From a virus: a DNA stretch of 41,260 nucleotides. The notes beneath the pieces were generated by a model. The model saw nothing but the letters and a program-made list of their open reading frames with translations. It searched no databases and had not been told where the DNA came from. The position numbers were made by a program, and so were the translations under genes. Location: IMG/VR virus record IMGVR_UViG_3300045009_000035, positions 1 through 41,260 of that record; one strand, given 5' to 3'. The number at the start of each line of letters is the position of its first letter. Within the stretch, counting starts at the first letter, position 1. Shown here piece by piece: positions 30,425-32,948 of this stretch.

Positions 30425-30694
30425 CTAAAATGGGATGTCGGTGTCTGGGGTCGGGGTGTGCGGACGCGGAGACGGACGGGCAGCCGGCGCGGCTCGCGGA
30501 GCCTCTGCCTGCTCGCGTGGCTCGCTGAACTTGAGCGACAGGAACTCGGTCCCCTTGCTTGAGGTCTTGACCCATGCAGCGATATCAACCATGCGACCGT
30601 TGATCATCGCGTTGCCTCGCCAGTCCGGCTGGCGTTCGTGTTGTTTGCGGTTGGGGAACAACGCCCCGCTGTCATCCTTCGGTTCGTACGGCAT
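30425..30694 (-). CDS. Small protein with SSB-like acidic tip
   Basis: An 89-residue protein. The N-terminal half has MPYEPKDDSGALFPNRK, PDWRGNAMINGRMVDIAAWV and KTSSKGTEFLSLKFSE, a small beta domain seen in many phages and sometimes annotated as DUF736-like or single-strand-binding-like. A Pro/Ala/Arg-rich linker ends in TPDTDIPF, nearly identical to the C-terminal tip of bacterial SSB (DDDIPF), which docks host repair and replication proteins. The ATG at 30694 was chosen because AAAGGA is six bases upstream; the longer form from 30718 lies further into the methyltransferase gene. It probably binds ssDNA or mimics SSB. Confidence 0.72.
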   Translation of the reverse strand: MPYEPKDDSGALFPNRKQHERQPDWRGNAMINGRMVDIAAWVKTSSKGTEFLSLKFSEPREQAEAPRAAPAARPSPRPHTPTPDTDIPF

Positions 30695-32948
30695 TGCCTG
30701 TCCTTTCGTAATTATCAATGCGCTCTCCGATCCAAGCCATCACGTTGACGGCCATGCTGTTGCCAAGCGCCTTGTAGCGCGGCCCGTCTGGGCAGTCATC
30801 GGCGGTCTTCTTGCGCCACGGGATCATCGTCCAGTTGCGCGGAAATCCCTGCAAAAACTCGCATTCTGTGGCCGTCAATCGACGCACGGTCATTGCGTTT
30901 TTTGACGTTGGCCGCGAAACATCAACGGGTCGCCGTGCCTCTTGAATCTCTGATAGTGCTTGTCGCAGAATCCCAACCCCTTCACCGGAGCACCACAGAT
31001 GGTGCATGAGCCTTTCGGCCTGTGGCCCCGGACATGGCAGCTGCGACAAATACGCTCCAAGTTGCCCGGCGAGTTGTTGAGGTAGTTCCCGTCGCGATGG
31101 TGAACATCCTTCGCCTTCGGCTTCCCGCACCGACTGCACGGCCCAGGCGGCACGATCTTCCGGGCGTGATATCGCGCAGTCGATGGGCCAACTACGGCTG
31201 AATGTCGCGCATCGAATGCCCTTGCCATGCAGACGCGACCGCAGTACTTGCGACGGTTGAAGTGAATCAAGTACTCCAAGCCCCCACGCGGCAAAGGCTT
31301 CCTCTCCAATTTCGTCCCGCAGAACTCGCAATGTCGCAATGGCGTTGGCTTCTTGTGTGCTGGCATGATCGCCATTGTACCCTTGCTGCTGCAAGGATTG
31401 AACAGGCACAAGCGGCGTCCCTCGCCCTGTACCGTCCTCGCTTGCGTCAAAGCCTTCGGCGCGAAGCGTGTGCGCGACCGCGACTTGTCCACCGCCGTTC
31501 GCGTGACTTCCGTCGTGCGACATTGAGCGCATCGTCGGGGAAATAGATGAGGCATCTCCTCCGTGATCCTTGCACGTGAATGCGATGACGGTCATCGGCG
31601 TGTGCGCCACCGCTGGCGGCGAAGGGATGCCGATGCCGCTTCCGACCTTTACCGCTGGCGAAACCTCTGGGTGCTGATTCACGCCGTGCGTTCCACCCGT
31701 GCTGTAGAAAGCGTGCGCCACCGCCTGCATCACGGTCGGCCCGCTTGCGTTGATGCTTGATCCCGGCGTACCCATCGTCGCCGCCACGTCACCCGTGATC
31801 GCGCCGTTGTAGCAGTCCGTGCCGTAGGCCACCGCCTGCTTGTTGTTGCCGCCACCGCCTGCCTCAAGCGTGCAGGCGACGCCTTCCTGTGCGCCAAGGC
31901 TCCGCGCTTCTGCTGACTGTCCGGGCTTGAACGCCACCGCAACCATCGGAGTGTTCCGTCCGCTAGGGTTGCTATTCGTGTTGACGGTTCCCGCGACTGC
32001 GCCCGTCCGCACCTCGCCGACTTGATTCTGCGCGAACGCCACCGCCACCGTTGTCGCCCGCACGTCGCCCTGGTCGAACAGCGACAGCGTTGGGTTGACT
32101 GCGCCCTCTACCCATGTCTCATCGTCGGTCGCGGACTGGGCGCGCTTGGACTTCGTGAACGGGACGGGTTGCGGGATGTACGCGCCGTGCCCGTCTAGTT
32201 CCGTGTGCGACCGCAGTCCGCGATTGCCGAGCGTCGAGGCGACGGGTTGCAGCGTCAGGTTCTGGCACTCGTCTCCGGCTGGCTCCCCGGTTCCCTTGCT
32301 CCACTTGCTGCACACGCTTGCAGCGCAGACTCCAGCATCGGCGGCAGGCTCTTCCCGCGTCGCTCTGCGCGGCGCAGAATCCCGCTGCACGCTTTGGGAC
32401 TCAAAGAGAACCGAGGCGGCAGCGGTTGGGTCTCCAAGACATCCGACAACGAAGATACGTCGCCTGCGCTGCGGGACGGCGCGTGGATGCCGTTGTGTTC
32501 GCACCCATTGAGCGTCCAGCACCCGGTAGGCCCACCCATACCCCAGTTCCCCCAGCGCCCCGAGGAAGGCACCAAGATCCCGTCCTGATCCTGATGACAA
32601 GACACCGGGGACATTTTCCCAGACAAGCCATCGAGGCCGTAGACGTTGAGCGATCTCAAGATAGGTGAGCATGAGTCCGCCTCTGGGGTCAGAGAGACCT
32701 CTGCGGAGTCCTGCGACGCTGAAGCTTTGGCATGGAGTTCCGCCGACCAGAAGGTCAACTGATCCGGGTCCGAGGTTCCATTCTGCATGACGAGTCATAT
32801 CTCCAAAGTTCGGGACATTGGGAAACCGATGCGCGAGGACCGCGCTCGGGAACGCTTCGATCTCGCTGAAGCCGACTGGCTGCCACCCGAGGTGATGCCA
32901 CGCCACACTTGCGGCCTCGATGCCGCTGCACACGCTCAAGTATCGCAT
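30672..32948 (-). CDS. C5 cytosine DNA methyltransferase
   Basis: A 758-residue Dcm-type methyltransferase. Motif I is LSVCSGIEAASVAW (SAM binding), motif IV TPCQSFS with catalytic Cys73, motif VI ENVPG at 111-115, motif VIII QRRRRIFVVG at 160-169, and motifs IX-X at the C-terminus (VRRLTATECEFLQGFP, RYKALGNSMAVNVMAWIG). About 430 residues of repeat-like sequence with VAVAF, VAHTL and QAVA units lie between, holding the target-recognition region. The segment just before motif IX overlaps an HNH gene in another frame. Start 32948 has AGGAG eight bases upstream. It may protect phage DNA from host restriction. No cognate restriction enzyme is seen. Confidence 0.9.
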   Translation of the reverse strand: MRYLSVCSGIEAASVAWHHLGWQPVGFSEIEAFPSAVLAHRFPNVPNFGDMTRHAEWNLGPGSVDLLVGGTPCQSFSVAGLRRGLSDPRGGLMLTYLEIAQRLRPRWLVWENVPGVLSSGSGRDLGAFLGALGELGYGWAYRVLDAQWVRTQRHPRAVPQRRRRIFVVGCLGDPTAAASVLFESQSVQRDSAPRRATREEPAADAGVCAASVCSKWSKGTGEPAGDECQNLTLQPVASTLGNRGLRSHTELDGHGAYIPQPVPFTKSKRAQSATDDETWVEGAVNPTLSLFDQGDVRATTVAVAFAQNQVGEVRTGAVAGTVNTNSNPSGRNTPMVAVAFKPGQSAEARSLGAQEGVACTLEAGGGGNNKQAVAYGTDCYNGAITGDVAATMGTPGSSINASGPTVMQAVAHAFYSTGGTHGVNQHPEVSPAVKVGSGIGIPSPPAVAHTPMTVIAFTCKDHGGDASSISPTMRSMSHDGSHANGGGQVAVAHTLRAEGFDASEDGTGRGTPLVPVQSLQQQGYNGDHASTQEANAIATLRVLRDEIGEEAFAAWGLGVLDSLQPSQVLRSRLHGKGIRCATFSRSWPIDCAISRPEDRAAWAVQSVREAEGEGCSPSRRELPQQLAGQLGAYLSQLPCPGPQAERLMHHLWCSGEGVGILRQALSEIQEARRPVDVSRPTSKNAMTVRRLTATECEFLQGFPRNWTMIPWRKKTADDCPDGPRYKALGNSMAVNVMAWIGERIDNYERTGNAVRTEG
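30890..31375 (-). CDS. HNH endonuclease overprinted on the methyltransferase gene
   Basis: A 161-residue protein in the second frame of the methyltransferase gene, same strand. A first zinc-ribbon has C16-x-x-C19 and C45-x-x-x-C49. The HNH core has C80-x-x-C83, HH at 92-93 (KDVHHRDGNYLNNSPGNLER), N105, then C110-x-x-C113-H114 and H118. A third ribbon has C124-x-x-C127, C137 and DKHYQRFKRHGDP, which is usual at the end of such phage nucleases. AAGGG lies four bases before the ATG at 31375. In a 38-codon sample third-position GC is about 74% in this frame and about 45% in the methyltransferase frame. It is probably a homing-type nicking nuclease. Chance assembly of this many ordered Cys/His ligands is unlikely. 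Confidence 0.8.
   Translation of the reverse strand: MAIMPAHKKPTPLRHCEFCGTKLERKPLPRGGLEYLIHFNRRKYCGRVCMARAFDARHSAVVGPSTARYHARKIVPPGPCSRCGKPKAKDVHHRDGNYLNNSPGNLERICRSCHVRGHRPKGSCTICGAPVKGLGFCDKHYQRFKRHGDPLMFRGQRQKTQ

Follow-up and report, generated by a model that had tools for sequence, protein, structure and literature searches.

How can one stretch of phage DNA encode a DNA methyltransferase in one frame and a nuclease in another, and what keeps both frames open? The question is raised by a locus in a tailed-phage record (IMG/VR record IMGVR_UViG_3300045009_000035), of which the whole stretch analysed, 41,260 nucleotides, is here called the window, and for which a preliminary description had proposed an HNH endonuclease gene overprinted inside a cytosine-C5 DNA methyltransferase (MTase) gene. 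Judging from sequence comparison, the probable explanation is that a mobile gene for an HNH endonuclease sits, out of frame, within a C5 MTase gene that remains functional. Erf-like annealing, RusA, SSB, terminase and tail genes are annotated in the window, so that recombination functions which homing would require are present.

Layout of the overlapping genes

The features of the locus, all on the minus strand, are as follows.
30672 to 32948, minus strand: cytosine-C5 DNA methyltransferase, 758 aa (PF00145, PHROG 116, M.HhaI)
32255 to 32788, minus strand: second overlapping ORF, P0002, 177 aa, in the same relative frame in the MTase gene, with a conserved module at about 32309-32470
31385 to 31400, minus strand: approximate left end of the element, with the codons SLQQQGY... 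common to carriers
31380 to 31384, minus strand: AAGGG Shine-Dalgarno-like site of the HNH gene, in the sequence four bases before the first ATG
30891 to 31376, minus strand: dual-coded MTase segment, about residues 525-686, missing from HNH-less MTases
30890 to 31375, minus strand: HNH nuclease ORF, 161 aa with stop (HNH families, invariant residues, AlphaFold model)
30837 to 30884, minus strand: recoded motif IX tract, 48 nt, which travels with HNH; putative location of the nuclease target

Both ORFs are open over the intervals that had been claimed for them, and the HNH ORF lies wholly inside the MTase gene in the +1 frame, HNH codon position 1 falling on MTase codon position 2, the HNH wobble base on MTase position 1 and the MTase wobble base on HNH position 2. 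The overlap falls between the variable repeat region of the MTase and its motif IX. Third-position GC in the 158-codon form is 70% for the HNH frame and 51% for the MTase frame (whose third position is HNH position 2), close to the earlier hand count of about 74% and 45%. The HNH protein matches the PHROG 1271 HNH family (E=1e-13) and, below Pfam's curated cut-off, HNH_3 (E=6e-5). The catalytic and zinc residues of an HNH homing endonuclease are present: C16, C19, C45, C49, C80, C83, H92, H93, N105, C110, C113, H114, H118, C124, C137 and H140 are invariant in 58 HNH sequences. The AlphaFold model of the protein has a mean pLDDT of 88.5, and a Foldseek comparison of this model with the PDB gave no significant match.

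The host protein matches PF00145 (E=1e-42) and PHROG 116 (E=1e-79), and M.HhaI aligns with it over residues 1-169. Its catalytic half (32418-32948) and its motifs IX-X (30675-30884) are separated by the repeats and the overlap, motifs I-VIII preceding the latter and IX-X following it. PCQ, ENV, QRRRR, motif IX and motif X are all present, as expected of a cytosine-C5 methyltransferase, and the PCQ, ENV, QRRRR, RRLT and GN residues are invariant or nearly so among 48 aligned MTases. In the structural model both catalytic parts have a pLDDT of about 95, the repeats fall below 40, and the dual-coded segment is helical at about 35-77, which is consistent with a protruding helical linker between well-modelled catalytic halves. 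The low-confidence helical protrusion thus agrees with the earlier picture of a methyltransferase whose linker is a frame-shifted nuclease.

The second overlapping ORF, P0002, contains the module LSD.LETG.VP.RYFLS.KAC.GILRRAEKRGK.LP. In many phage MTases, whether or not they carry HNH, this module comes right after motif VIII and shows strong conservation in the +1 frame; 151 matches, HNH-less MTases included, have it at one and the same frame offset, and the frame of P0002 after motif VIII has 22 stops where 58.7 are expected. Because the module resembles in-frame sequences of other C5 MTases (e.g. RLVDILEKDVDERYYLSEEK in L001), P0002 is possibly the product of an old frame change.

Relatives of the HNH gene and selection on both frames

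Phage records yielded relatives of the HNH protein in Staphylococcus phage CUB-EPI_14 (48% HNH identity) and in Komagataeibacter phages phiKX1 and phiKX2 (36%). The former is annotated only as a methyltransferase, an example of how annotation pipelines overlook such nested nucleases. The phiKX1 record (L002), which annotates short hypothetical proteins over a single 549-codon C5-MTase ORF with a nested HNH, is probably misannotated at this locus. IMG/VR, whose contigs may carry sequencing errors, was scanned with the HNH protein and then with a profile; in almost every locus among the best 80 of 143 relatives, the relative frame is the same and the host frame is stop-free, usually with C5-MTase motifs on both sides. 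Once redundancy is removed, the members whose host frame is open number 66, from IMG/VR and one Staphylococcus phage, at loci spanning about 26% to 69% GC. Recognised MTase parts stand both before and after HNH in the host frame of 49 of the 66, and in 45 cases within one uninterrupted ORF. The hosts include other C5-MTase classes (phiKX1, L105, L089, L206). This recurrence of the same nesting and frame bears out the earlier suggestion that the dual coding is old and widespread.

Carriers share CTTGC.GCA.CAAGGGTA directly upstream of the HNH start and, at the approximate left end of the element, the peptide pattern ETL.QQGYDA.HASTQE. Independent HNH homologs, which the preliminary description had anticipated, do exist, as far as remote freestanding relatives are concerned (Streptomyces phage Jada gp14 and Mycobacterium phage Jung gp55); close relatives, those with at least about 36% identity, are nested in practically every case, in a set of loci retrieved by conserved peptide patterns from nested members and therefore biased against freestanding ones. 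A plasmid search with HNH gave no match, nor did a profile search of 398 genomes of one bacterial phylum. In genome contigs the sole match was a 514-aa ORF of Aneurinibacillus tyrosinisolvens (L022) composed of about ten tandem HNH C-terminal zinc fingers of the KHY.RFKKHGDP type with no HNH domain. The alignment of distant members was too variable for use in scanning. The MTase-frame segment alone had no match at 1e-5 in phage records because that frame diverges faster.

One alternative is that HNH alone is functional and the MTase a dead host frame that stays open by chance. Across the HNH gene, the MTase frame of the 66 members has no stops at all, where within-gene synonymous shuffling would give 468 +/- 15, while the third frame, with 452 observed against 431 expected, behaves as predicted, and a chance ORF is rejected on this ground. 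T never occurs at an HNH wobble position where it would create an MTase stop (before AA, AG or GA; 0/3,170), but does so at 1,971 of 7,489 positions elsewhere. Among 19 independent pairs, changes that are silent in HNH prove more conservative in the MTase frame than expected (BLOSUM 0.54 against a null of 0.18 +/- 0.10) and produce no stops where 40 are expected; the same kind of test applied to the N- and C-terminal regions of the MTase is near null. The lower conservation of the MTase-frame segment (28% against 48% for HNH in L001) and its low-confidence model would suit a dead MTase, yet the missing stops, the catalytic motifs conserved on both sides of the overlap and the conservative HNH-silent changes make that reading extremely unlikely. 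A pseudogene host was likewise considered and rejected. The MTase frame is, on these comparisons, kept stop-free through HNH and selected at the amino-acid level. The HNH ORF, for its part, is complete and, with a pN/pS of about 0.15-0.4 in close pairs, is under strong purifying selection; NG86 synonymous rates of HNH and of the MTase N-terminus are near saturation, the N-terminal region being itself dual-coded. Constraint on one frame only, the outcome that the preliminary description had named as counting against it, is rejected, both frames being selected.

The genetic code offers a reason for the use of this relative frame. A stop in the MTase frame needs T at an HNH wobble position, so that, reasoning from the code, every such stop should be avoidable by a silent HNH change. 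In the third frame the amino acid sequence alone can dictate a stop, as when Met precedes a codon that begins with A.

A further way to account for two open frames would be that the insert is spliced out, as an intron or intein of novel type, and that the MTase frame through it is not translated. Mobile phage HNH genes do often reside in group I introns, and the patchy distribution described below looks like that of an intron. Splicing, however, would remove any need for stop-free MTase frames in 66 of 66 members and for conservatism in that frame, and Rfam gives no intron family in the window or in 8 related loci, which leaves this reading about as improbable as that of a dead MTase. An intron was rejected on the Rfam result, the HNH gene not qualifying as a group I intron-encoded endonuclease, and an intein was rejected since the Pfam matches of the MTase include no intein family.

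HNH would be expressed by internal initiation. The AAGGG site, pointed out earlier as the ribosome site of HNH, was found before the ATG at 31375, and a second in-frame ATG follows at 31366. A Shine-Dalgarno match of at least 5 nt precedes 41% of the 66 HNH starts and 4% of 593 background ATGs in the overlap (p=1e-16); on this evidence the HNH gene has a Shine-Dalgarno site of its own. As had been noticed, five bases separate the end of the HNH ORF from the RRLT codons of motif IX, and in 25 of the 38 carriers with a readable motif the HNH stop is made by the motif IX Leu-Thr codons (CTGAC, TTGAC or TTAAC; stop offset -7). It could be argued that programmed frameshifting or readthrough joins the frames into MTase-HNH fusions, given that motif IX of some relatives contains CTT-TAA, CTC-TGA or CTT-TAG and that the C-terminus goes on after it in +1 or in frame. 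These sites, however, come after the HNH stop and not at the switch point, the window has no such site, and the HNH starts have Shine-Dalgarno sites; we therefore regard fusion as very unlikely.

Empty sites and the recoded motif IX tract

Methyltransferase homologs were found both with and without the segment, as had been expected of an inserted nuclease gene, and these empty sites, together with the selection on both frames, uphold the idea of an insertion that left both frames open. None of the 73 closest MTases with a complete C-terminus carries HNH. MTases without the insert are up to 94% identical over the N-terminal domain. Multi-repeat C5 MTases of phages that lack the insert, such as those of Pseudanabaena phage Pan4, Caulobacter phage DMCA and Roseobacter phage CRP-821, have the same catalytic halves and variable repeat region and pass directly from the repeats to VRRLTP.ECERLQGFPD. 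On the tree of N-terminal regions, HNH presence needs 15 changes, of which well-supported branches force at least 8; the window clusters with the HNH-less L110 and L111 (SH-aLRT 97). Losses could be part of the patchy distribution. HNH distances correlate with those of the MTase flanks (Mantel r 0.65-0.69), implying that much of the history is vertical.

The 48-nt motif IX tract, which is recoded in the carriers of the window's group, is in the window 88-90% identical in nucleotides to that of the carriers L032-L035 and 56-60% identical to that of HNH-less relatives, and identity to the HNH-less sisters recovers just downstream. The carrier L034 and the HNH-less L136 are sister phages that share 94% identity along 2.3 kb upstream; their identity drops to 0.58 within the tract and is 0.97 over the 66 nt that follow. 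For 18 carriers the mean is 0.60 in the tract and 0.82 downstream, against 0.81 and 0.86 in HNH-less controls (p=3e-7). The R and D of ERLQGFPD, invariant in 66/66 HNH-less MTases, are each changed in 20 of 38 carriers, mostly to F and R. We read the tract as the result of co-conversion and target recoding. The locus has the empty sites in close relatives and, on this reading, the co-converted flank that are expected of a homing endonuclease. The recoding is not universal, 18 of the 38 carriers retaining the ERLQGFPD type, and since about half of the carriers lack the recoded tract, a single target cannot be claimed for all of them.

The locus L101, a single case, has a decayed MTase frame (25 stops) and an intact HNH, a pattern as expected of an element selected for itself. 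It is relevant to the alternative that HNH has been domesticated, forming with the MTase a nested restriction-modification or competitor-exclusion pair in which the MTase would shield the phage's own DNA, HNH would attack DNA that is unmodified or comes from a rival, and nesting would prevent the two from separating. Close relatives that are almost never freestanding, fully invariant catalytic residues and long-term co-inheritance of HNH with its flanks would all be understandable in such a pair. The persistence of HNH in L101 despite MTase decay would not, nor would close MTases that lack HNH with no visible compensation or the same HNH family in several C5-MTase classes, and a flanking recoded tract is expected of homing and not of restriction-modification. 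We consider a domesticated pair unlikely, if less so than splicing, fusion or a dead MTase.

Several loci depart from the common arrangement. In L073/L074, L076, L084, L087 and L088, a 6-7 nt insertion places a stop at a single position of motif IX (RRLTPL followed by TAG, TGA or TAA) just after the HNH overlap, and LEC.RLQG. continues in frame after TAG and TGA and in +1 in both TAA cases. These stops could represent a dead MTase, a scar destroying the nuclease target or a recoding site, and because of them the MTase may not be functional everywhere. L087 also has a second, divergent HNH ORF (L087:3722-4267), with an open -1 frame as well, upstream of the first in the same MTase region. Truncated HNH genes, lacking the C-terminal finger or else the N-terminal one, occur in L078, L082, L091 and L092 and in L100 and L102, still in open MTase frames, and motif IX, where readable in such loci, is of the unrecoded type.

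A possible homing mechanism and known systems

For the preferred reading, a mobile HNH gene nested in a functional MTase gene, the following mechanism can be proposed. One transcript would be read twice: ribosomes entering at the MTase start would make the full-length MTase, with the frame-shifted segment as a flexible helical linker before motif IX, and ribosomes entering at the internal site would make the HNH nuclease. During co-infection the nuclease would cut MTase alleles that lack HNH, at the conserved codons of motif IX or close to them, and repair would copy the HNH gene along with the adjoining recoded, cut-resistant motif IX. The recipient might keep its methylation because the recoded motif still encodes RRLT..EC..LQGFP, and the open host frame would take the place of splicing. 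Taken to its full extent, the proposal is that of a natural self-protecting home-and-rescue drive, in which the nested HNH cuts the motif IX DNA of other phages' MTases and swaps in its own recoded, uncuttable and functional motif IX, and of a long-lived, widespread family that survives without splicing through constrained wobble positions; we put this forward tentatively, as having somewhat less than an even chance of being correct. If it is true, what appeared in 2025 as a mycobacteriophage curiosity would become a widespread lifestyle of mobile nucleases, with open-frame selection replacing splicing. The locus is also among the cleaner cases of dual coding in prokaryotes, since selection can be seen in each of the two frames, and because the nuclease target (the motif IX codons) is predicted from sequence, homing and immunity are directly testable.

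Freestanding homing endonucleases of the T4 type (seg, mob), known for "intronless homing", cut relatives that lack them with co-conversion of flanks, and their targets often encode functionally critical residues (PMC2988022). Spread by this route is what we propose for the HNH of the window, which differs in that it overlaps its host gene in another frame, whereas seg and mob genes stand between host genes. HNH homing endonucleases encoded by inteins or group I introns, such as I-HmuI, are likewise inserted in conserved phage genes, but here an open host frame is found instead of a splicing element.

The closest parallel is the "ShiLan domain", an out-of-frame HNH in mycobacteriophage N4/N6 methylases (PMC11855218, Genes 2025), an arrangement first described in 2023 (PMC9957025) and exemplified by phage Applejack in PMC12613952. 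That system resembles the present one in an HNH ORF lying, out of frame, within a phage DNA methylase whose own frame is open throughout, in patchy distribution with neither intron nor intein, and in a low-confidence linker in the methylase frame. In the record of Lamina13, a sequenced example of the ShiLan type, HNH position 1 coincides with MTase position 2, as in the window. The locus has what marks the ShiLan type: a complete HNH ORF in an alternative frame of an open methylase gene, patchy presence among close methylases and no recognisable intron or intein. It is not a ShiLan element proper, because the host methylase of Lamina13 belongs to N6_N4_Mtase (PF01555) and that of the window to the C5 class (PF00145), and the two HNH proteins are only remotely related (E about 1e-8). 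The authors of the 2025 paper saw no ribosome-binding site and suggested leaderless GTG initiation, while the present family has Shine-Dalgarno sites and mostly ATG starts; breadth, selection tests on both frames and a recoded flank, given here for the C5 family, were not seen in the main text of that paper. No C5-MTase example of a nested HNH was found in searches of open papers. What the present comparison would add as new is thus C5 MTase hosts, another HNH family, breadth, evidence of selection on both frames, a ribosome site and a putative recoded target that travels with the nuclease gene.
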